A DNA stretch of 64,000 nt from Bdellovibrionota bacterium (GTDB taxonomy: Bacteria; Bdellovibrionota; Bdellovibrionia; Bdellovibrionales; JAMPXM01): positions 1 through 64,000 of the forward strand of contig CAUJGS010000003.1 of NCBI GenBank assembly GCA_963170185.1, given 5' to 3'. The translations under genes were made by a program, and so were the position numbers. The notes under the pieces are model-generated. The model worked only from the letters and a program-made list of their open reading frames with translations, had not been told where the DNA came from and searched no databases. Positions 52,026-64,000 of the stretch are shown piece by piece. Positions within the stretch are counted from its first letter, which is position 1; every line of letters starts with the position of its first letter.

Positions 52026-53419
52026 TGCCTGGAAGACGGGATACGCTTTGGGGAACCCGATTTGGTTTTTATCTCGCGGCCGTTGGTTCGGCCTTGGGGC
52101 TTGGGAACCTTTGGCGATTTCCCTTCGTGACCGTTGAAAATGGCGGCGGCGCTTTTGTTCTGCTTTATGTTGGCTTTGTCTTGATCGTGGGACTGCCGAT
52201 CTTGATCGGCGAGCTTATGCTAGGGAAAATCGCTCGTCGCGGATCAGTCGCGGCCTTTCGTCGCTTGGAAAACGATGACGAGATTGGCGAGAGCGAGCCG
52301 GGAACATTTGGGGCTGGAGGTTTTGCGGCGCTTAGCTGTCTCTTGGTCTTGGCCTATTACGCTGTTGTAAGCGGGTGGGTTTTGCATTTTCTTATGCAGT
52401 TCGCGTTCGGTGGGATCTTGTCGTCAGGCGAGAACATTGATTCCAGCATGCGGGTTTTAAAAGACAGTGGGCTCCTGCAGTTGGCTTTGGCGAGTGTTCA
52501 TATTTTGATATCGCTTGTGATCGTCGTTAAGGGCGTCCAAGAGGGGATCGAAAAGTGGGTCGGTAATATCATGCCGGTCTTTGTCGTTCTCTTGGGAATC
52601 TTGGTTGTGAAATCCTTGGCAACGGGGCAGGCGACGGAAGCTCTTCGTTTTCAGTTTTATCCGGACTTCACGAAGCTTAACTGGCACTCGCCACTTCATG
52701 CTCTGGGGCATGCGTTTTTTTCGCTCTCAGTAGGCATGGGTACCATGATCGCATTTGGTTCTTACTTAAAGCCGGAGGCCCATATCCCAAGTGCCGGGTT
52801 TCGTGTAGCGACACTTGATACGGTCATCTCGCTTTTCGCCGGTCTTTTGATTTTCCCGACGATTATCGGCATGAGCTTGGGAAGTTCCGGGCCTGAGATG
52901 TTGTTTCGTGCCCTGCCAAGGCTTTTGCAGGGAATTGAAAGTGGTTGGTTTTTTGGAGTGGCGTTTTTCGTTTGCCTTTACCTAGGCGCACTAGGTGCCT
53001 CGATCGGCCTCTTGGAGGCACTGGTCGCCAATGTGACCGAGGCTTTGAAAGTGTCGCGTGAGAAGGCGGCCTGGGTGGTTGGAACGGCGACAGTGGTATG
53101 CGCGGTGATTCCGGCGCTCTCGTCTAGCGTGCTCGACGATGTGACCGTCAACGGTCGGTCGCTCTTTTTGTTCTGGGATTCGGTGGTGGTAAACGGGCTT
53201 TTGCCGCTTGGAGTTTTGGCCTTTTGTTTGGCGCTTTCGAAAAAGCTGAAGGCAGCGCCTGCTATTCACGAGTTCGTAAATGACGACTCGCTTGTGACAC
53301 AGACGCTTTATTCTCACTGGCGTTTCGCGATTCGCTTTTTAATTCCGAGTATCATCGTCATGTGCGTGATGACATCGCTATTGGCGTCGTTTGCCGAAGT
53401 TATTTTTTTGGGGCGGTAA
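52025..53419 (+). CDS. Sodium:neurotransmitter symporter family transporter
   Basis: A 464-residue SNF-family transporter with about 11-12 helices. It opens with RFGFYLAAVGSALGLGNLWR, followed by FPFVTVENGGGAFVLLYVG, the Na1/substrate-site hallmark of LeuT-like proteins, and GLPILIGELMLGK. Substrate is probably an amino acid or related amine. The start overlaps the der stop by 1 bp (TAATG). It ends the seven-gene operon; its last 20 bp overlap the end of the opposing exported gene. Confidence 0.9.
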   Translation: MPGRRDTLWGTRFGFYLAAVGSALGLGNLWRFPFVTVENGGGAFVLLYVGFVLIVGLPILIGELMLGKIARRGSVAAFRRLENDDEIGESEPGTFGAGGFAALSCLLVLAYYAVVSGWVLHFLMQFAFGGILSSGENIDSSMRVLKDSGLLQLALASVHILISLVIVVKGVQEGIEKWVGNIMPVFVVLLGILVVKSLATGQATEALRFQFYPDFTKLNWHSPLHALGHAFFSLSVGMGTMIAFGSYLKPEAHIPSAGFRVATLDTVISLFAGLLIFPTIIGMSLGSSGPEMLFRALPRLLQGIESGWFFGVAFFVCLYLGALGASIGLLEALVANVTEALKVSREKAAWVVGTATVVCAVIPALSSSVLDDVTVNGRSLFLFWDSVVVNGLLPLGVLAFCLALSKKLKAAPAIHEFVNDDSLVTQTLYSHWRFAIRFLIPSIIVMCVMTSLLASFAEVIFLGR

Positions 53420-56400
53420 CCGGAGCTTTTGGTCTTGGTGCCTGCTGGGGGGACGACTGGCCAGTTGACTGGCCAATCGATTGAGCAGGCACGCGTGTTC
53501 GGCGAGAAGCCTCGTAGGCATTCCAAATTGACGCGATCGATGCACCGGTGGAAAGCGCCTGACTAGCCGCTTGATAGCGCTCCACGGTCCAAGCGTCGTT
53601 CATGCCGAGTTCGATCGCTTTGGCGAGATAGCTTTGTGTGGCGATCAGGCTTGCGTAGTCGCCGGCCATCGCTTTTAAAAAACTCGCATGTCCAGCAATT
53701 CGGAAAGCCAGAGCATGATCGCGCGAGTATCTTAAACATTCAATTGCGAGAGCCTCGGCGCTTGAAAGCGAGCCTGGGTCGGTTGTCGCGACTCCAGGTG
53801 CGGCGAAATACAAGGTTTCAGCTTTTTTAACCAGCGCGAGAGCCAGCGTTTGATCGAATTCGGGAGCTTTGGAGATCTGCGAGGCGCGTCGCGCGTTTTG
53901 AATCGCGAGATCATATTGTCGAAACTGAATGAGTCCCCAGGCTAACCCGCCAAAGAGCCACGGGTTTTTGGGTGCTTCGTAAAGCGCTCGACTGTAGGTT
54001 TTCGTGAATTCGGCACTGTTTTTCGTGCTGAGATAGAAGTTTGCCAAGCGTTCCAACGCCGAGACTTTTGTCACACGTGGTCCGCGGATGTTTGCGGCAC
54101 GGCTAAGGCTGCTTTCGACTTGCGCTTTATTGCCAAGAGCTTGGTGGATTTCGGCCATCATGATGAGGTCGCTAGCGACATCTTTTTCTAGCGACATCGC
54201 ATTTTGAATTGCGACCAAAGCCTCTTTGGGGCGGCCGTCGGCAAGTAGCATGCGCGCGTGAACACGGTGATAGCGCGGATTTTTCATCATGTCTTTTCCA
54301 ATGCTCACAAAGAGCTTTCCGGCTTCTTTGAGGTGCAGCGGAAGATACCGGCCCTCGGCGGCAAGGCCACTGGTGACGAGGGCATCGACGTACTCCAAGC
54401 GAATCTGCGGAGAAGTGAGGCCTCTTCGAATCATGTCCCGCATAGAAAGGAAGATCTTCATCTGGATGACGGGATTTAGCGGCCGCGAATCCACCATGCC
54501 GAGAGTTTTGATGTCTTGCAGGTTAAAAAGAGAAATCGGTTTTTTTAGCGATGCCGCTTCGTCGGGCGCCAGGGAGAACATAGGATCTTCGTACGCGGGT
54601 CGAGGGCCGATTGCGACTTTGGAGCGCGCGATGCAGCCGAGATACGAAGCGAGTTCATCTTTGAAGACTTTTGTTTGAATGGAGTTAGCGGGGATTCGAT
54701 CTTGCTTGAAGCGGATGTTTTCCGCCACCAGGAATCCGTCGGGTGTTTCACGGGTCTCGCGAATCACCGAAGCAAATGAAGTCAGAGAGATGCAAGAAGT
54801 TTGAGTTTCGTCGGAGACGGCGGAGTTTCTGAATCGTGTCTCGATATCGAGGTTGAGGTTCTTTGACATGATAAGGTCGGTGGCGCGTGCTCCCGTTGCA
54901 AGCGATGGTAGGCCGACGATGCCGGGTACACTTAAGTCGACGTCGCGGTGTTCGCCACGGATTCCGACAAGGCCGGTTCCAACAAACGAGAAGTTGATAT
55001 CGAAATGGCGTCCTCGACGATCGCGATTGTCGATTTGCATCAGCGGTGTGATCTGCGGAGCTTTTGCAGCCAGTCCAAAGAGTGAACGAATGTAGGGTTC
55101 AACCTGTTGCTGGCCCTGTGTGATGGCGAGAATTTTGAGTTCCGCGGCCATTGGTCCTTCAACTTGCACGCGGCCCGAAGCGGCGACACTGGTGTCGGGT
55201 CGGACGTCGAATGTTTGCGTGATGCGAACCGATGTCGAAATCGGAGACTCAATCGGAACCCGTTCGAAGTTTGATCCGGTGCGAGTCAGCGTCAAAGCCC
55301 AGGCGCCTTGAATTTCGCTAAGTGGCCCTTCCGTGTAAACGACCGGGATCGTGGGATCGAAGAAGCGTGTTTTTCCTTGGTCTAATACGCGCACGACGGC
55401 GTGATTGAAGGACTCAAGTGAAGGGGTGGTGGGCATTTCTTCGATGAAAAGTCGTTCGGTCGGATTTTGTTTCCAAACAAGTGCCACGTCGGCTTGGACA
55501 CCTGCGGCTCTCAGGGCGACGGACGTCATGTAGGCATAGTCTTTTGAGTCGGCTCGTTTTAAGCGAATCATGTCGGAAAGACTCTGCGGTGTAAGGCCGC
55601 CTTCGGCGCGCGACCATTCGCCTGTGTAACGCACGATTTGCTGAATGCGTTCGACCACGAGATTGATTCGTTCGTCTATAGTCGGAATGGCTTTGGCCGC
55701 ATCGACGATGAAACCGAGTTCGGAAGGCATCGGGTCGTTCAGAGGTGGTTGAAATTTGGGAACCAAGACGTCCAAAACGCCCACCCAAGACGATTGATTG
55801 GAGATTTGAACGCGTGGAATTTGAAGAGTGCTGATGGCTCCGCCTTGTTCGCCATCGAATTTGCGATAGACCGGTGCCTTGAGTTCGATCTTATAGAGAA
55901 ACTGACCGTCGGGAAGTTTGCCTTGAGTGAAGGCCAAGAGAGGGTTGTTTCTTTCGCGAGCGGATCGCGAAGCATCGATGAAGATGGGCTCTTTGGACTC
56001 AACCGAGATCGAGCCGCTGAGTTCCGGATACTCCGTTCCCCATGTGAAGGCGCGTGAAAAGAGGCCCATGATGCGTGATTGTCGGTTCGAGATCTCGTAG
56101 GTGATTCGCAAGATGGAGCCGACCTTGAGGTCGCCAAAGCGAATGATCCAGTTGCGAGCTGGGTCAAATGGGTTCAACGGTCGCACGGTGGACTTGTCGT
56201 CCACCGGCTCAAGAAAGATACCATCGGCGGCGACCGCTTTTGACAGGCTTGGCGTATTACCGAGGCCTGGTTCGAAAAATTCGGCTGAGTGAATTTTTAC
56301 GTCTTCCAGCTCGTCGCTGATCGGGAACTTGTAGCGTGAAACAAGGGCGCGTCCTTGATCTGTGTTGATCTTGATTTCTAAAACGCCATTGATGCGAAAC

Positions 56401-56636
56401 GTTCCGCCTTGGGAAATTGGCGCGACTTGAATCACGCGGTCGTGACGGCGAATATGCAAAGGCGCATCTTCCGAACGTAGCCATGCGGCTTGTGCAAGTT
56501 CTGGAGTGAGCGTCGCTAGCGTAAGTGCGCCGATGATCGCAAGACAAAGCATGGCGCACGACATTCCGTGAGGAAGTACGATCGGAAACAGAGTCGGTTT
56601 TCGGGCGAGTTGTTTCGCCGAAATACTTGTTATCAC
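53400..56636 (-). CDS. Large exported DUF3857/transglutaminase-like/TPR protein, catalytic Cys replaced
   Basis: About 1078 residues from GTG 56636, chosen because it gives a positively charged region, hydrophobic core and AQA cleavage site (LAQA-AWLRS); the frame is open to 56711 and a later ATG is at 56564. Domains: DUF3857 (about 50-245), transglutaminase-like (about 290-420) in which the usual KGDCKD reads RADSKD, so Cys is Ser while the His (FNHAVVRVL) and Asp (FFDPT) are kept, a beta-rich middle, and C-terminal TPR-like repeats (about 780-1020). Probably periplasmic and non-catalytic. The 3' end overlaps the SNF transporter gene by 20 bp. Confidence 0.75.
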   Translation of the reverse strand: MITSISAKQLARKPTLFPIVLPHGMSCAMLCLAIIGALTLATLTPELAQAAWLRSEDAPLHIRRHDRVIQVAPISQGGTFRINGVLEIKINTDQGRALVSRYKFPISDELEDVKIHSAEFFEPGLGNTPSLSKAVAADGIFLEPVDDKSTVRPLNPFDPARNWIIRFGDLKVGSILRITYEISNRQSRIMGLFSRAFTWGTEYPELSGSISVESKEPIFIDASRSARERNNPLLAFTQGKLPDGQFLYKIELKAPVYRKFDGEQGGAISTLQIPRVQISNQSSWVGVLDVLVPKFQPPLNDPMPSELGFIVDAAKAIPTIDERINLVVERIQQIVRYTGEWSRAEGGLTPQSLSDMIRLKRADSKDYAYMTSVALRAAGVQADVALVWKQNPTERLFIEEMPTTPSLESFNHAVVRVLDQGKTRFFDPTIPVVYTEGPLSEIQGAWALTLTRTGSNFERVPIESPISTSVRITQTFDVRPDTSVAASGRVQVEGPMAAELKILAITQGQQQVEPYIRSLFGLAAKAPQITPLMQIDNRDRRGRHFDINFSFVGTGLVGIRGEHRDVDLSVPGIVGLPSLATGARATDLIMSKNLNLDIETRFRNSAVSDETQTSCISLTSFASVIRETRETPDGFLVAENIRFKQDRIPANSIQTKVFKDELASYLGCIARSKVAIGPRPAYEDPMFSLAPDEAASLKKPISLFNLQDIKTLGMVDSRPLNPVIQMKIFLSMRDMIRRGLTSPQIRLEYVDALVTSGLAAEGRYLPLHLKEAGKLFVSIGKDMMKNPRYHRVHARMLLADGRPKEALVAIQNAMSLEKDVASDLIMMAEIHQALGNKAQVESSLSRAANIRGPRVTKVSALERLANFYLSTKNSAEFTKTYSRALYEAPKNPWLFGGLAWGLIQFRQYDLAIQNARRASQISKAPEFDQTLALALVKKAETLYFAAPGVATTDPGSLSSAEALAIECLRYSRDHALAFRIAGHASFLKAMAGDYASLIATQSYLAKAIELGMNDAWTVERYQAASQALSTGASIASIWNAYEASRRTRVPAQSIGQSTGQSSPQQAPRPKAPVTAPKK

Positions 56637-56759
56637 TCTGATTCTTGTATCGGCGATGAGGCGGCGGCTCTTGATAAAATCCGGCCCATTTGCATCACAC
56701 TGAAACGCCAAACGCCAACTACTAGACGATAGCCCAGCGTAATTGAAGCCGTAGCGATA

Positions 56760-57599
56760 CTAAAAGTTAACGCCCAAGACACCTAGAACGGTGAAGCTAT
56801 CGCCGACGGGTGAAACTCCGGTCGACTGGTCGTTTTCGTCGAGGATGATTTTCGCTTCATCGGTGAACATGGCGTATTGGAACATGCCCTGAAGACCGAA
56901 GAAGAGTTTGTTTCGCATCATAGGGACTTCGATGCCTGCTCCGACGTTGAACGCGAACGCGGCATCTTTGGCGAAGTTGTCATTTCCGGAGACAGTGATC
57001 GTGCGATACATCTGCGAGAAACCACCTAGAATGTAGGGATTCAGATCCGCAAGTCCGCGTGTCACGTTCTGCGTGTTGAAATAGTATTTGAGGTTCGCAC
57101 CGATGTCGGTGACGTTCACGTTGCCGCGAATGGGCGTGTAGCTGCCGCCGGCAACACTTAAAAGGTGATCGCTCGTGAGAAAGCCGAACTGCAGAGCAAA
57201 TCGCAAATCGAAAAAGTAGCAGAGGAAGAGGCCAAACGCCATATTCGTCGAGTAGATCTGAGAGAGCGTTTGGGTCCAGCCACGGGCTCCGCCGATGAAG
57301 CCCACTGTAAGAAGTCGTCCGTTTCGGAAGAAGTTCAAATCCTCTTCTTCTTCGACGGATTCTTCGAATTCCGAATAATCGGCAAACGGATCATAGGAGT
57401 CATCGGCTTGGGCGACTAAAACCCCAGGAGGAAGATTGAGGCGAGTGGTTGCTGAGCTGGATTCGTTACTTGTGACAAGCGTTTGCTGAGCGGTCGCGAG
57501 GTTGGGAGTCAGAAGGAGGAGGCTTGCGAGAACGGCGCCGGAAATGGCCTGTTTTAGAAGGCTTGGGCGAGGGCCTGGGCCGCAGTTTTGGGTAAGCAC
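56760..57599 (-). CDS. Outer-membrane beta-barrel protein
   Basis: A 279-residue exported protein starting at GTG 57599 with AAAGGAG upstream. Signal peptide (cleavage near ATA-QQT), an acidic linker (SEFEESVEEEED), then alternating amphipathic strands (LTVGFIGGARGW, ALQFGFLTSDHLL, PYILGGFSQMYR, FFGLQGMFQYAMF). It ends in VLGVNF with the terminal Phe needed for BAM recognition. Similar OmpA-type 8-stranded barrels are common in Bdellovibrio-like genomes. Function unknown. Confidence 0.75.
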   Translation of the reverse strand: MLTQNCGPGPRPSLLKQAISGAVLASLLLLTPNLATAQQTLVTSNESSSATTRLNLPPGVLVAQADDSYDPFADYSEFEESVEEEEDLNFFRNGRLLTVGFIGGARGWTQTLSQIYSTNMAFGLFLCYFFDLRFALQFGFLTSDHLLSVAGGSYTPIRGNVNVTDIGANLKYYFNTQNVTRGLADLNPYILGGFSQMYRTITVSGNDNFAKDAAFAFNVGAGIEVPMMRNKLFFGLQGMFQYAMFTDEAKIILDENDQSTGVSPVGDSFTVLGVLGVNF

Positions 57600-57659
57600 G
57601 CAAGCTCCTTTTGCATAGCGTCAAAGAGTGAACTCTCTAATAGGGTACCGAGCAAAATC

Positions 57660-57780
57660 CCCCTAGGCAAGAGCGCAGGTACAAGCGCAGGCAGAGCCGA
57701 AGCGGTCTCGATCGGAATGTCGAGAAGTTAGACAGTGGATCTGGCAGTCGGTTGGACTGTCGGTTGGACTGTGGAATCTT
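57660..57780. repeat. Degenerate 12-bp repeats upstream of purM
   Basis: The 262-nt gap between the outer-membrane gene and purM holds two short arrays: CAAGAGCGCAGG and TACAAGCGCAGG (57667-57690), and CAGTCGGTTGGA with CTGTCGGTTGGA (57745-57768) followed by CTGTGGAATC. No clear riboswitch or PurR-type palindrome is visible in the rest. The purM leader ends with GCGAGG before the ATG. Confidence 0.6.
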
Positions 57781-57861
57781 TGTCTCTTCGGGTGGCTTGC
57801 GTGCTTCTTGGGTTGATTCTTTGCCCTCGGTTTGGTCCTATGTGGCGGCGAGGTTTCACTC

Positions 57862-58914
57862 ATGTCGAAGATTTCCTATCGCGACTCCGGAGTCGATGTG
57901 GAGGCTGGCGATCAGCTGGTCGATTGGTTGATTGAATCCGAAGGTGCGGGCAAAGATGGTGGAAGCCAAAAGAAGCCAGCCCCTCGTGCCGACCAGGTGG
58001 TTTCTGGAATCGGTGGCTTCGCAGCGGTTTTCCGCGCTCAATTCTCTCACATGAAAAAACCGTGTTTGGTGGCGGCGACCGATGGGATCGGGACGAAGAT
58101 CCTGCTCGCGAGTCATGCTCGGCGCTACGGCGAGGTTGCGCAAGACTTGGTCGCGATGTGCGTGAACGACCTTGTTTGCTCGGGTGCCGAACCTCTTTTC
58201 TTTTTGGATTACTACGCGACCAGCAAGCTTGAGCCTCAGGCAGCTAAAGAGTTTCTTCATGGCGTGCGCCGAGCTTGCGAGTTTGTGAACTGCGCGCTTA
58301 TCGGCGGCGAGACGGCGGAAATGCCTGGCGTGTACAAGCCCGGCGATTTCGACGCTGCTGGATTCGCGGTTGGCGTTGTCGACGAAGAAGACATGCTTGG
58401 GCCTTCGCGGGTGGAGGTCGGCGATCAGATCGTGGGTGTTTCGAGTTCCGGATTTCACTCAAACGGATTTTCACTTTTGCGAAAGCTATTTGAGAGCGAT
58501 CTCGACAAGTGGGTCGATCAGCTTTTGGTACCGACGGCACTTTATGTGAACCTGGTTTTGGAGCTGAAGAAAAAGGGTCTTGTCAAAGCGGCGGCTCATA
58601 TCACCGGTGGCGGCATGGAGAACTTGCCGCGTGTTCTGCCCCGTGGCTCCGAGGTGAAGCTTGTCGACTGGGCATGGCCGGACACCTTCATCGAGGTTCA
58701 AGAGCGCTCGCGACTGACGCGAGAAGAAATGCTGAAGACGCTGAACTGCGGTGTGGGCATGGCTCTGGTTTGCAGTCCAAAACACGTGGCGGAAGTCGAG
58801 AAGATCGTTCGGGCGCATGATCATCTTGCGATGGCGCTTGGACGTGTCGACCTCCAGCAGGGATCCAAGGCGCTTCATGAGCCGTCCGCAGCGGAATCGC
58901 GGGTGGTGTACTGA
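57862..58914 (+). CDS. purM: Phosphoribosylformylglycinamidine cyclo-ligase
   Basis: About 350 residues from ATG 57862, where the family opening SKISYRDSGVDVEAG begins; the frame to 57832 is longer but less typical. Family strings: KPCLVAATDGIGTKILLA, DLVAMCVNDLVCSGAEPLFFLDY, IGGETAEMPGVYKPGDFDAAG and AHITGGGMENLPRVLP. It closes the imidazole ring to AIR (step 5). First gene of the pur operon; its stop overlaps the purN start. Confidence 0.96.
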   Translation: MSKISYRDSGVDVEAGDQLVDWLIESEGAGKDGGSQKKPAPRADQVVSGIGGFAAVFRAQFSHMKKPCLVAATDGIGTKILLASHARRYGEVAQDLVAMCVNDLVCSGAEPLFFLDYYATSKLEPQAAKEFLHGVRRACEFVNCALIGGETAEMPGVYKPGDFDAAGFAVGVVDEEDMLGPSRVEVGDQIVGVSSSGFHSNGFSLLRKLFESDLDKWVDQLLVPTALYVNLVLELKKKGLVKAAAHITGGGMENLPRVLPRGSEVKLVDWAWPDTFIEVQERSRLTREEMLKTLNCGVGMALVCSPKHVAEVEKIVRAHDHLAMALGRVDLQQGSKALHEPSAAESRVVY

Positions 58915-59507
58915 TGATTCGTTGGTGCGTCTTCATTTCTGGAAGAGGCTCCAATCTCGCTGCCGCAATCGAAGAGTGTCGCGAAACTGGTCCGACGATC
59001 TCTTTGGTTGTCTCATCGGATGAATCTGCGCCTGGACTGGCAAAGGCGAGGCGCGCCGGGATTCCCACTCTCGTGATGCCGAAGATAGATCATCCGACCA
59101 CTGGTAGCGGCAAACAAAAGATCGACTGGGTGGCTTTGGATAGAGCTCTGCGTGCCGCTCGCATCGACGCGATTTTTTTATTGGGTTTCATGCGCATTGT
59201 TCCGGCTGATTTTTTGGAGCGCTGGAGTGGACGCGTTTGGAATCTTCATCCGTCGCTTCTGCCAAGTTTTCCGGGGTTGCGTAGCATCGAGCGAGCGGCC
59301 ATGGCCAAAGCGCCGCTCGGGGCGACGATTCATGTCGTTGAACCGGAAGTCGATGCGGGACCAATTGTGAAACAAACACGCGTTGAATCTCGTGGTGCGG
59401 TTTTGGAGAGTGTGGCCGCGGCGGAGTTTTTCGTGCACCAGGTGGAGCAAGTTTTGGTGAGAGGGATGTTCTCACGGCTTCGAACCATGGAAGAGGGGAA
59501 GGGCTAA
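58914..59507 (+). CDS. purN: Phosphoribosylglycinamide formyltransferase
   Basis: A 197-residue folate-dependent enzyme (step 3). Motifs: SGRGSNLAAAIEE (phosphate loop), GFMRIVPADFLERWSGRVWN (folate/catalytic region), HPSLLPSFPG with catalytic His, and GATIHVVEPEVDAGPIV with catalytic Asp. Length normal. Overlaps purM by 1 bp and the next gene by 1 bp. Confidence 0.95.
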   Translation: MIRWCVFISGRGSNLAAAIEECRETGPTISLVVSSDESAPGLAKARRAGIPTLVMPKIDHPTTGSGKQKIDWVALDRALRAARIDAIFLLGFMRIVPADFLERWSGRVWNLHPSLLPSFPGLRSIERAAMAKAPLGATIHVVEPEVDAGPIVKQTRVESRGAVLESVAAAEFFVHQVEQVLVRGMFSRLRTMEEGKG

Positions 59508-60817
59508 TGGAATCAGCCTCGATGCAAGTTGCGGATGTGATTTTAGTTTCAACTGATACACGCGGCTTTGAGCTTGCGGCGTCTTTGGCGAAAAAAGGTT
59601 GGAAAACGGTCGTTCTAGAACTCGATGGCGGTCCTTTAAACAAATATCTGGAGTTGGAAGATCGCTTCGGTCCGTTTGCCTCTTACTCGGATAGTGCCAA
59701 GGCCTTTGAGGATGGAGAAGCGACGGGTTCGCTTTGGCTTAAGAGTGGTCCGGTCGCGCTGGCTGGTCCGCGCACGGAAGTCGGCAGTGCTCATCTTTCG
59801 AACCGTTATGGACTCGATCGTGTTTGGGTCAAGGCGCTTAGTCGAAGCCTGCTGGCTTCGAGACTTAAGCGTCGTGAGGCGTTTCTTGATTCGGCGGGAC
59901 CAGCAGAGCCTGAGATCGGTTGGCAGCGCGGAGTTCGCCCACTCTTGAATGTTTCGGAGCTGGCGGCCTTTCGGCGTAAGAATGCACTGGCGTCGGGTGT
60001 TCGGATCTTGGATGTCGATCAGATTTTGGATATTCGAATTCGCGATGGACGCATGGATCGTATCGAACTTCGCACCGTCGACGGCAAGGTTTTGCAAGAG
60101 CGCACACGATCGGCGGTGTGGTTGCTTTCACTTGAGGAGTCGCAGCGTACAGAGTTCGTGAATGCCAAGGTCTCGGTTTCGACCTTGCTTTCTCAGCCAA
60201 GTATTCTTGAGCCCTTGATGGGCTGGTGGAGAAGTCGCTTGGTCGTTAGCGGCTTAAAGTCGAAAGCGGCTCCTACTGGGCTTCGAAAGCCACCCGAAAT
60301 GCCGTCGCATCTTGTGTTTGTTGGCTCGCTTGAGCGTCCTTGGACTCATGACAATGTGATGGCCCTGGATTTGGTGGAAAAAACCGAAGAGATCTTGGTT
60401 TACGATGTTTGGATGCGGCTTCCGTATTGGTCCCGCGCGGACCACGTGTACCGCGATGAGCAGCGGATGCTTGCCAAGCAGCAGTTGGCGGAGCGTCTCC
60501 CGGGATGTGAGATCGAATGGGTCACGCCATCGCCGATTGGACTTAGTGAAGCTTCAATTCGTATGCCTCAGATTCTTTATTCTCACGACTCCAAGCCGCC
60601 GAAGTCGGTCGTGCGCAACATGTGTTTTGCCGGACCGGAGGTTTGGCGAGGGGTTGGTCTTGTTGGCCTGGAGCTTTGCGAAAACGACTGGATCAAGGAA
60701 CTCGAAGGTCTTCGCATGGATTGGGACCCGGCGGCGCGTGTTCACGCCAGTCGCGTCCAGAAATTGAAATACAAAGTGCAAGGCTACATGAAACCAGAAA
60801 GTGAGATTTCGCCGTGA
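59507..60817 (+). CDS. Unknown Rossmann-like protein encoded inside the pur operon
   Basis: A 436-residue soluble protein. The start (VADVILVSTDTRGFELAASL, then KKGWKTVVLELDGGPL) reads as a Rossmann/FAD-type beta-alpha-beta unit, with the strand-2 acidic residue, but the GxGxxG loop is lost (STDTRG). The rest is unlike known amine oxidases. It is coupled to purN (1-bp overlap) and to purB (4-bp GTGA overlap), so it is likely expressed with purine synthesis. Not a known purine enzyme (purH, D, E, F, K are absent here but none fit). Role unknown. Confidence 0.7.
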   Translation: MESASMQVADVILVSTDTRGFELAASLAKKGWKTVVLELDGGPLNKYLELEDRFGPFASYSDSAKAFEDGEATGSLWLKSGPVALAGPRTEVGSAHLSNRYGLDRVWVKALSRSLLASRLKRREAFLDSAGPAEPEIGWQRGVRPLLNVSELAAFRRKNALASGVRILDVDQILDIRIRDGRMDRIELRTVDGKVLQERTRSAVWLLSLEESQRTEFVNAKVSVSTLLSQPSILEPLMGWWRSRLVVSGLKSKAAPTGLRKPPEMPSHLVFVGSLERPWTHDNVMALDLVEKTEEILVYDVWMRLPYWSRADHVYRDEQRMLAKQQLAERLPGCEIEWVTPSPIGLSEASIRMPQILYSHDSKPPKSVVRNMCFAGPEVWRGVGLVGLELCENDWIKELEGLRMDWDPAARVHASRVQKLKYKVQGYMKPESEISP

Positions 60818-62109
60818 TTGCTCGCTACACGCGCCCCGAGATGGGCAACGTCTTTAAGCCAGAACGTCGTTTCGATTGGATGTTGAAAGTGGAGACGACG
60901 GTCGCGGAAGTTCAGGCCGCGCACGGCTTGATCCCTGCGGAGGCGGCCAAGGCAATTCGCGAAAAAGGTCGTTTCGATGTCGCTCGCATCGAAGAAATCG
61001 AAAAGACCACCAGACATGACGTGATCGCGTTTGTTTCCTGTGTCGCCGAAAATGTCGGTGAGCATGGCCGATGGATTCACTACGGCCTGACTTCCAGCGA
61101 TGTTCTGGATACGGCCTTGAGTCTTCAGACGATGGAAGCGCTGACGGTTTTGCGAACGTCGCTTCACAAGCTCATCGCCGGCTTGCAAAAACGCGCGCGC
61201 GAAGAGGCGGCGACGCTTTGTGCGGGTCGTACCCACGGGATGCATGCCGAACCCACGACGTTTGGGATGAAGCTTGCGGGCTTTTGGAGCGAGTTTCAGC
61301 GACATGATACACGTCTTGCGCGTGCGCTTGAGAACATCTCAATCGGAAAGCTTTCGGGAGCGGTTGGAACGTATTCGACTCAAGGTTTTGAAATCGAACG
61401 CGATGTGTGCGCGAAATTGGGGCTTAAGCCCGAGACGATCGCGACACAGGTGATTCCACGCGATCGTTATGCCGAAGTCTTTTCGGCGTTGGCGCTTCTG
61501 GGTGGTGGAATCGAACGTTTGGCTGTCGAGATGAGACATCTCCAGCGAAATGAGCTTGGTGAAGCGGTTGAGGCTTTTGCCAAAGGGCAAAAGGGATCAA
61601 GCGCGATGCCGCACAAGAAGAACCCGATCACGGCCGAAAACCTCACCGGAGTGGCGCGCCTGCTTCGTAGCTACGCGCAAGCTTCTTTTGAGAACATGGC
61701 GCTCTGGCATGAGCGAGATATCTCGCATTCATCAGTTGAGCGCGTGATTGTGCCGGATGCGTTCATCTTGGCTCACTATGCTTGCGAACGTATGAACGAC
61801 CTCGTTAGCGGCCTTGAAGTGCAAGCGGACGCGATGAAACGAAATATGGATCTTTCGGGCGGCATGCTCTTTAGCTCGCACTTGCTTCTGGCGTTGGTCG
61901 AGGCGGGTCTTTCGCGAGAAGAGGCGTACGCACATGCCCAGCGTCTGAGTCACAGTTTGAAACTGGGTGAAAATCTCAAGGATGCTGCGGCGAATGATCC
62001 GGAAGTGAAGAAGTTGGTCAAACCAGAAGTTCTTGATGATGTGTTCTCGGGGCGCCGTCACCGTGAAGCGGTTAAAGGTGCTCTCGAACGCGCGGGTTTG
62101 TGGAAGTAG
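60814..62109 (+). CDS. purB: Adenylosuccinate lyase
   Basis: A 431-residue fumarase-superfamily enzyme for two steps of purine synthesis. Motifs: TRPEMGNVF opening, IHYGLTSSDVLDTALS, AGRTHGMHAEPTTFG, and the superfamily signature GSSAMPHKKNPI. It starts at GTG 60814, overlapping the previous gene by 4 bp. Length normal. Confidence 0.96.
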   Translation: MIARYTRPEMGNVFKPERRFDWMLKVETTVAEVQAAHGLIPAEAAKAIREKGRFDVARIEEIEKTTRHDVIAFVSCVAENVGEHGRWIHYGLTSSDVLDTALSLQTMEALTVLRTSLHKLIAGLQKRAREEAATLCAGRTHGMHAEPTTFGMKLAGFWSEFQRHDTRLARALENISIGKLSGAVGTYSTQGFEIERDVCAKLGLKPETIATQVIPRDRYAEVFSALALLGGGIERLAVEMRHLQRNELGEAVEAFAKGQKGSSAMPHKKNPITAENLTGVARLLRSYAQASFENMALWHERDISHSSVERVIVPDAFILAHYACERMNDLVSGLEVQADAMKRNMDLSGGMLFSSHLLLALVEAGLSREEAYAHAQRLSHSLKLGENLKDAAANDPEVKKLVKPEVLDDVFSGRRHREAVKGALERAGLWK

Positions 62110-62126
62110 TGTTTTAAGAAAGCGGG

Positions 62127-62876
62127 ATGGCGATGGAAGCAGGCGGACGATTTTCTAAAGGTGCCATGGTCTACGAAGGTAAAGCCAAGCGCTTGTACCA
62201 GGTCGAAGGACGCTCGGATCTCATTTGGCAGGAGTTCAAAGATAGCCTCACGGCTTTCAATGCTCAAAAAAAAGGGAACTTCGCCAACAAAGGAGCTTTG
62301 AATCGTGAGATCAGCTCACTTTTGTTTCAGGAACTGGAAAAAAACGGCGTTCACACACACCGCGTGGCCGACATTTCGGCGACCGAAGAGGTGACGAAGA
62401 AGCTTGAGATGGTGAAGCTTGAACTCGTTGTGAGAAACGTACTGGCGGGTTCGACGGCAAAAAAATTTGGTATCGAAGAAGGTACGCCGCTTGAGCGCCC
62501 GCTTGTCGAATTCTATTACAAGGACGATGCGCTTGCGGACCCGTTCGTGAGCGACGATCAGGCGATCATGATTAAAGCCGCAAAGTCTTTGGCGGAGCTC
62601 GATGAACTAAAAGTGTTTGCTCTGAAGGTGAATGCGACCTTGCTTCCAGTTATGCGCTCGGCGGGCTTACAGCTTGTGGATTTTAAGATTGAGGCGGGTC
62701 GAGATACGACTGGTGTTCTTCACCTTGCAGACGAGATTTCGCCAGACTGCTGCCGCCTTTGGGATCTTAAGACGGGCGAGAAGATGGACAAGGACCGCTT
62801 CCGTCGTGATCTTGGTGGTGTTGAGGAAGCGTATCGCGAAGTTTGTGAACGATTAAAGAAAGCGTTGCTTAAGTAG
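62127..62876 (+). CDS. purC: SAICAR synthase
   Basis: A 249-residue ATP-dependent phosphoribosylaminoimidazole-succinocarboxamide synthase. N-terminal MVYEGKAKRLYQVEG after a short extension, FKDSLTAFNAQKK, VRNVLAGSTAKKFGIEEGT, GLQLVDFKIEAGRD and ADEISPDCCRLWD, all family motifs. Starts 17 nt after purB. Complete. Confidence 0.95.
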   Translation: MAMEAGGRFSKGAMVYEGKAKRLYQVEGRSDLIWQEFKDSLTAFNAQKKGNFANKGALNREISSLLFQELEKNGVHTHRVADISATEEVTKKLEMVKLELVVRNVLAGSTAKKFGIEEGTPLERPLVEFYYKDDALADPFVSDDQAIMIKAAKSLAELDELKVFALKVNATLLPVMRSAGLQLVDFKIEAGRDTTGVLHLADEISPDCCRLWDLKTGEKMDKDRFRRDLGGVEEAYREVCERLKKALLK

Positions 62877-62889
62877 AAGAGGTGTTGAG

Positions 62890-63138
62890 ATGGCAAAAGA
62901 GTTTACTTTCGGTGTGACGGTTATGCCGCGAAAAGAAGTTTTGGATACGCAAGGTCGCGCCGTCGAAGAGACGCTGAAGCGAGAAGGTGAGCCGGTCGTT
63001 TCGGCTCGCGTTGGCCGTTACGTTGAACTCAAAGTCACGGGTACGACAGTGAAGGAAGCTGAAGCGACAGCTCAGAAGATTTCATCGGGTCTTTTGGCAA
63101 ACACACTGATTGAGACATTTGAACTGAAACTTCTCTAA
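62890..63138 (+). CDS. purS: Phosphoribosylformylglycinamidine synthase subunit PurS
   Basis: An 82-residue protein of the PurS family with VMPRKEVLDTQGRAVEETLK, SARVGRYVELKVTG and a C-terminal helix ending IETFELKLL. It bridges PurQ and PurL in the three-subunit FGAM synthetase. GAAGAGGTG lies before the ATG. Typical length. Confidence 0.94.
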   Translation: MAKEFTFGVTVMPRKEVLDTQGRAVEETLKREGEPVVSARVGRYVELKVTGTTVKEAEATAQKISSGLLANTLIETFELKLL

Positions 63139-63169
63139 GTTTTCGTTTCGTATTTTTGGAAAGGCGACG

Positions 63170-63829
63170 ATGGGAAAATCACGCGTGGGAGTTATTCGAT
63201 TCCCGGGAACAAATTGTGATCGCGACGTTTTCGAAGCGGTCGAACAAAGCGGTGCGGAGGCCGTTTGGCTTTGGCATGGTGATCAGTTCGATTTCAAGGG
63301 CTTTGCTGCTCTGATTTTGCCGGGTGGGTTTTCTTACGGCGACTACTTGCGAAGCGGTGCTCTGGCCGCTCGTGCGGTGGCGATGCAATCTGTTCGTGAA
63401 GCGGCTTCGCACGGGACTCCTATTTTGGGAATCTGCAACGGGTTTCAAATTCTTTGCGAATCGGGTCTCTTGCCAGGGGCTCTTTCTCGCAATCACGGGC
63501 TTCGTTTCATCGATGCTTGGGTGGACTTAAAAAAAGCCGGCGGTAAAACGACTTTTGGTGCGGCATTGAAGGTCGGTGATGGAATTCGCATTCCGATCGC
63601 TCATGCCGATGGTCGCTACATCATTGCCGAAGAGAACCTTAAGGGTCTTCGCGACAACAACCAAGTCTGGTTGGAGTATGTCGACAATCCCAATGGTTCG
63701 ATCGCGAACATCGCGGGCGTCACGAATGCCGCAGGTAATGTCGCGGGACTGATGCCGCATCCTGAGCGTGCGTATCACGAATGGATGGGCGGTTCCGACG
63801 GACGCAAACTTCTTGAGATCTGGAAATAG
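63170..63829 (+). CDS. purQ: Phosphoribosylformylglycinamidine synthase subunit PurQ
   Basis: A 219-residue class I glutamine amidotransferase. VIRFPGTNCDRDVFEAVEQ opening, SYGDYLRSGALAAR, nucleophile Cys in LGICNGFQIL, and catalytic His/Glu in GLMPHPERA. It supplies ammonia to PurL. Located directly before purL. Confidence 0.96.
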   Translation: MGKSRVGVIRFPGTNCDRDVFEAVEQSGAEAVWLWHGDQFDFKGFAALILPGGFSYGDYLRSGALAARAVAMQSVREAASHGTPILGICNGFQILCESGLLPGALSRNHGLRFIDAWVDLKKAGGKTTFGAALKVGDGIRIPIAHADGRYIIAEENLKGLRDNNQVWLEYVDNPNGSIANIAGVTNAAGNVAGLMPHPERAYHEWMGGSDGRKLLEIWK

Positions 63830-63838
63830 GTGAGAGCG

Positions 63839-64000
63839 ATGGGACAAGACACAAGAACCAATGACGAGTTGGACGCCAAGCTTAAGCACTATCGCTTGAA
63901 TCGCGATGAACATAAACGCATCGCTGGTCTATTGGGGCGGGAGCCTCAGGGGGTCGAGTGGGCTCTGTTTTCGGCGATGTGGAGTGAGCACTGTTCGTAC
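63839..64000 (+). CDS. purL: Phosphoribosylformylglycinamidine synthase subunit PurL, truncated by window end
   Basis: The first 54 codons of purL ([20 protein letters not shown]...) end in [11 protein letters not shown], the N-terminal hallmark of the small-type PurL (WSEHCSY), followed by the window edge. AGGTGAGAG precedes the ATG. The full gene would be about 2.2 kb. Confidence 0.95.

Follow-up and report, generated by a model that had tools for sequence, protein, structure and literature searches.

A predicted flavoprotein fold encoded beside purB in one bacterial class, and its possible role as a partner of adenylosuccinate lyase

Gene X in the purine operon

The window, the whole stretch of 64,000 nucleotides analysed here, carries a purine operon in the order purM-purN-X-purB-purC-purS-purQ, with all genes on the same strand (Table 1). 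X denotes the ORF between purN and purB, which is single-copy in the source genome and shares one base of its start with the purN stop (TAATG). Immediately past the end of the window the contig continues with purL and purF (L198; Pfam), and purH and purA were found elsewhere in the source genome, so X does not fill any of these gaps (purD, purE and purK lay outside this check). No Pfam or NCBIfam family reaches its cut-off with the X protein, whose best library matches are short and sub-threshold and which falls in no known purine enzyme family, in agreement with the sequence-only reading, which saw no resemblance to the missing purine enzymes. A Pfam DsbC_N match (E 3e-4, 20.6 bits against a cut-off of 25, 39 residues) was absent from six relatives scanned and was attributed to chance; matches to ANAPC9, CDC50, TIGR00292 and PDB 8ew9 (E 0.02) were also taken as chance. 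An Rfam scan of 53000-64000 matched no RNA element, and two peptide patterns run against IMG/VR found no viral carriage of X.

Table 1 Features of the X locus, in window coordinates
Feature	Position	Strand	Evidence or remark
purM	57832..58914	+	NCBIfam TIGR00878, 322.5 bits (cut-off 236)
purN, upstream neighbour here, not in many relatives	58914..59507	+	TIGR00639, 125 bits (below cut-off 150)
Gene X, 436 aa, ATG to TGA	59507..60817	+	ORF; predicted amine-oxidase/phytoene-desaturase-like FAD fold, degenerate cofactor loop
Codons of S15-T-D-T-R-G20, loop in place of GxGxxG	59549..59566	+	Alignment of 113 homologues
Codon of E38, acid closing beta strand 2	59618..59620	+	Asp/Glu in 104/113 homologues
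Segment with the most conserved residues (W240, R242, P266, W279, N283, D300, W302, P306)	60218..60424	+	Strands of the would-be substrate domain
GTGA overlap, X stop / purB start	60814..60817	+	4 bases; same kind in 67/113 genomes (strict script)
purB, adenylosuccinate lyase, constant neighbour of X	60814..62109	+	TIGR00928, 476.8 bits (cut-off 326.2)
purC, purS, purQ	62127..63829	+	purC and purQ by NCBIfam above cut-off; purS by place and homologues in other loci

Upstream of purM, a divergent minus-strand pair encodes a 1103-aa protein with weak TPR similarity (53400-56711) and a 279-aa outer-membrane beta-barrel protein (56760-57599); a minus-strand gene pair occupies the matching place in L199 and L207. 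Downstream of the purine operon, ldcA (LD-carboxypeptidase S66), a beta-lactamase-like hydrolase and an mpl-like Mur ligase follow in conserved order (L198:7566-12154, L207:10215-13687), and this run stands directly after purB where the other pur genes have been lost.

Distribution of X and its linkage to purB

Direct search recovered relatives of X in 39 of 59 related genomes. A profile built from 26 of these relatives (A1) detected X in 119 of the 143 genomes searched within the class, which we infer to be Bdellovibrionia, genus g19 being Bdellovibrio. Outside the class the same profile gave 0 of 225 phylum genomes, a count that could miss very divergent members and for which at most four candidate stretches per genome were scored, fewer than within the class. 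A scan of 84,980 species for peptide patterns derived from relatives returned 46 X loci, nearly all titled as Bdellovibrio relatives; the first genome scan, with the window protein as query, had found nothing because the X family diverges fast. A public record titled Streptomyces griseus (L070) has a Bdellovibrio-type purM-purN-X-purB arrangement; the title looks wrong. Conservation at this position in Bdellovibrionota, proposed as a check by the sequence-only reading, is thus borne out in relatives and confined to a single class. No homologue in a non-purine context with another clear function was found.

X is a genuine gene and not a chance reading frame, being a class-wide family under strong purifying selection. 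Between close Bdellovibrio genomes (seven pairs), dN/dS was 0.01-0.08 for X and 0.01-0.03 for purB, one purB value being incomputable owing to saturated dS. The complete B. bacteriovorus kdesi genome holds a second, partial copy of X ~160 kb from the full one, comprising the C-terminal third (L144; G062, contig 1, 2392167-2392646; E 2e-62) with one internal stop, and a genus mate of the source (L003 in G002, a 76% complete draft) has an in-frame TGA in its X homologue, which reflects either genuine decay or an error in the sequence.

Of the 24 genomes in which the profile detected no X, 15 were inspected through their purB. A wider profile revealed an X-like ORF upstream of purB in G077 and G097, and in genus g15 an ORF of 314-336 aa occupies the same slot in nine of the ten genomes checked (G097 included). 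Taken as a set, the short g15 ORFs gave an alignment to the X profile spanning 148 columns (probability 94, pairwise E 1.2e-7, from a single comparison and not a database search), and the impression that X is missing from this genus was accordingly rejected for those nine genomes in favour of a shrunken X-like ORF. Two genomes have purB but no X, namely G044 and G023, the latter with a purM-N-B-C-S-Q-L operon that looks complete; in G011, G079 and G083 purB lay at a contig end or was not found, placing them outside the verdict on presence or absence. Outgroup purB genes, sampled at 23 loci in other classes, are preceded by a variety of ORFs, none of them X-like at E up to 10.

Linkage of X to purB is nearly constant. 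Among 113 genomes with an X protein, purB lies downstream on the same strand within the stretch examined in 110, and the two genes overlap in 95, by exactly four bases in 67 of these. A gap of 0-100 bases separates them in 11 genomes, and four show larger gaps: G119 (228 bases), G132 (inserted genes), G002 (the stop inside X) and G103, where the long gap is a split-match artefact and a reading of the context gives a four-base overlap. The three genomes without purB in the stretch are G111 (contig end), G133, in which a 941-aa gene stands between X and purB, and G134, in which X adjoins purM and purB is on another contig. The inserted gene of G133 (L203:6628-9450) has a prepilin-like start. Of the 46 loci from the species scan, purB follows X in 42, a contig edge intervenes in three and purB is elsewhere in L105. 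Genes upstream of X vary among relatives and may be purN, purM or non-purine genes, purN being often absent; the window and the majority of f1 and f4 relatives carry X inside a pur operon. The proposed coupling of X to both purN and purB is seen in the two overlaps here, while across relatives the partner is purB.

Comparison of gene orders disclosed repeated loss of the other pur genes around X and purB. G004 has the order era-der-NSS-...-purM-purN-X-purB-purC-purS-purQ-purL-purF-ldcA, and the source genome shares it from purM on, followed by blaLike and mpl. In the Bdellovibrio genus, all 19 stretches show, where contig ends allow, era-der-NSS-...-X-purB-ldcA-blaLike-mpl, with purM, purN, purC, purS, purQ, purL and purF gone from the locus in 19/19 and ldcA after X-purB in 18/19, the contig ending in the remaining one. 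X-purB without other pur genes also occurs in f2 (G013), f4 (G129, G055, G112) and, outside the Bdellovibrio genus, f9 (G081, G097). Retention of X-purB alone in several lineages indicates that the partner of X is purB rather than the purine operon as a whole, which narrows the earlier suggestion of a partner of purine synthesis. One Bdellovibrio-genus member, G046, carries a purF-purN-purL-purQ-purM cluster at another locus (L268, contig 1, 1030000-1044000) whose purL and purM are 31% and 43% identical to the window genes, as if acquired by transfer after excision of the native cluster.

X also persists in genomes in which several de novo purine genes are missing. purM was not found in 13 of 141 genomes; eight were tested further, leaving aside five with completeness of 54-90%. 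In seven of these eight, purH and purL were missing as well, purA was present in six of the seven, and all seven have X next to purB, in G020 as the shrunken ORF. The Bdellovibrio-genus members G056, G073 and G069 are without purM, purH and purL. Genes may be missing from drafts, yet G020, G056 and G073 are 99-100% complete. X thus does not track the presence and absence of the de novo pathway: seven genomes lacking purM, purH and purL keep it beside purB, and the operon-bearing G023 is without it. This pattern indicates an association of X with PurB and the AMP branch rather than with de novo synthesis.

Rates of evolution were in line with this linkage. Over the class, X changes at about three times the rate of PurB (mean tree distances of 3.65 and 1.14 in 57 genomes). 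The partial correlation of distances in these 57 genomes was 0.44 for X-PurB with PurM fixed and 0.03 for PurM; in 32 genomes the values were 0.54 for X-PurB and 0.17 for both PurM and PurN. X-PurB exceeded X-PurM in 498 of 500 subsamples and X-PurN in 495 of 500, with the reservation that correlations of this kind are never entirely free of effects of the shared operon. A search for PurB positions tracking X yielded none that convinced: of 22 class-specific positions, G023 and G044 keep 22 and 19, respectively, even though both are without X, indicating that these positions do not mark an X interface.

Predicted fold and degenerate cofactor loop

Structure prediction assigns X the FAD fold of the amine-oxidase/phytoene-desaturase group. 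The B. bacteriovorus homologue was modelled with a mean pLDDT of 92.1 and pTM of 0.90, and the window protein (AF2) with a pLDDT of 78.5 and pTM of 0.81. Foldseek placed both models with the flavoproteins nicotine oxidase, monoamine oxidase and phytoene desaturase, at TM of about 0.4-0.57, so that domain positions differ. For the B. bacteriovorus homologue, matches included NicA2 (E 1.1e-13) and the GDI structures 6c87_B (E 5.9e-12) and 1d5t (3.3e-11). VIA-align ranked gamma-carotenoid desaturase 4rep first for both the homologue (Z 18.8, rmsd 4.1, 386 aligned) and window X (Z 17.1, rmsd 4.8, 342 aligned), and aligned the homologue with the GDI/REP structure 3cpj_G at Z 15.7 (rmsd 4.4, 352 aligned). 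The predicted fold is thus of the FAD type that the earlier proposal of a comparison with FAD/NAD proteins had in view.

Sequence profiles are consistent with this assignment. The X profile aligned over its full length with 25 PF01593-type proteins of relatives, selected from 30 loci for carrying the GxGxxG loop (pairwise E 1.6e-5), and one f11 member gave sub-threshold matches to FAD profiles (Pfam DAO 7e-5, CrtD 1.5e-4, CrtI-type 8e-4). Window X had no PF01593 match up to E 10, nor did any appear up to E 1 in six other homologues. X therefore shares with PF01593-type FAD flavoproteins, including those of the protoporphyrinogen-oxidase fold, the whole-chain predicted fold, the strand-helix-strand opening, the acid of strand 2 and the full-length profile alignment, but differs from them in having no Pfam match above cut-off, in a GxGxxG motif that is not intact in 111 of 113 members and in its fixed link to purB.

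The degenerate Rossmann opening noticed in the sequence-only reading is real. Residues 11-20 of window X read VILVSTDTRG where GxGxxG is expected, and all three glycines are intact in only two of 113 homologues (G141 and G142), both of family f11. The first, second and third loop glycines are retained in 12, 5 and 92 homologues, respectively; the second is replaced in 108, mostly by Phe or Tyr, and an Arg precedes the third in 98. In the B. bacteriovorus model, strand 30-34, the second beta strand, closes with the E38-type acid, a position that contacts ribose in FAD enzymes. A Trp aligned to W240 is invariant (113/113). To judge from the alignment, this pattern looks like decay of the cofactor site after the class arose, and ancestral members may still bind FAD, as some in f11 keep GxGxxG.

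X as a candidate PurB partner

On these comparisons we tentatively favour X as a cofactor-degenerate flavoprotein fold that would serve as a dedicated partner or modulator of PurB, probably by binding it. This class-specific protein would descend from a flavin enzyme with the fold of phytoene desaturase and amine oxidase, would have lost its pyrophosphate-binding loop and would have been retained as a dedicated PurB partner, probably made in step with PurB through the overlapping start and stop codons. On the IMP-to-AMP branch, it would most likely modulate the activity, stability or assembly of PurB. We infer from sequence patterns that X may act through PurB, bind it and have no enzymatic function of its own. 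A PurB accessory protein is expected to stay linked to purB and to survive together with it, as X was found to do here. X is not an obligatory subunit of PurB, because purB occurs without X in G023 and G044; together with the outgroup loci, these genomes fit a modulator better than a subunit.

Rab GDI/REP may offer a model for how a flavin fold could be turned into a protein regulator, as proposed for X. These eukaryotic proteins have a flavin fold without a known flavin enzyme role and bind prenylated Rab GTPases. The predicted fold is common to them and X, and no sequence match between them was found here.

That X is still an enzyme, with an altered mode of binding FAD or a different nucleotide, or with no need of a cofactor, and acts on an AMP-branch metabolite (adenylosuccinate, fumarate, AMP, adenine or a side product), seems doubtful to us, although several features speak for it. 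An enzyme fold is predicted at high confidence to be retained, conserved Trp, Arg, Asn and Asp residues line strands of the would-be substrate domain, the acid of strand 2 is kept in 104 of 113 homologues and GxGxxG is intact in G141 and G142. These stand against the near-universal replacement of the second loop glycine (108/113), the lack of any enzyme-family profile match above cut-off, and the shrinkage of X to ~320 aa in one genus and its loss from two purB-bearing genomes.

We also regard it as unlikely that X performs a separate function with no relation to PurB and has only the transcript in common with purB, the overlap merely coupling its dose to purB. HflD of E. coli is a different protein from X and, like X, is encoded by the gene directly upstream of purB. 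The hflD-purB pair sets a precedent for an unrelated gene in this position, as supplying purB, but not hflD, reversed the effect that deletion of hflD had on susceptibility to fosfomycin, a polar effect (PMC11963563); an effect of a gene upstream of purB can therefore be purely polar. X and purB are, moreover, no longer adjacent in G132-G134. Against such independence, exactly X-purB is what is left after other pur genes were lost from the locus in several lineages, and the rate of X tracks PurB, not PurM or PurN.

An improbable variant of the partner reading would make the decayed FAD site a sensor of an adenine nucleotide (AMP, ADP or ATP) that signals to PurB in a complex. With the second loop glycine lost, a dinucleotide should no longer fit, while the Arg (98/113) and the ribose-type acid (104/113) remain. 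If this were true, AMP synthesis would be under feedback at the level of protein, in a form confined to this class, whose members also draw nucleotides from prey.

Least probable is that X belongs to the de novo purine pathway, or to its multi-enzyme assembly, as a component specific to this lineage, as its place inside the pur operon in the window and most f1/f4 relatives might suggest, since X is kept in the seven genomes without purM, purH and purL, G023 has the operon without X, and in Bdellovibrio G046 the de novo genes sit at another locus while X is still with purB. On the same retention, the lineage-specific enzyme of purine synthesis once entertained for this gene becomes unlikely.

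For a role of X as a PurB partner, we know of no dedicated protein regulator of this core enzyme in bacteria. Searches of a collection with few subscription journals, on Bdellovibrio purine genes, essential genes and auxotrophy and on adenylosuccinate lyase pseudoenzymes, gave nothing on X. If the partner reading is true, a flavin-enzyme fold would have been recruited as a dedicated partner of adenylosuccinate lyase throughout the class, including the predator Bdellovibrio, and the natural loss of the other pur genes around X-purB makes the partner question directly testable in B. bacteriovorus.
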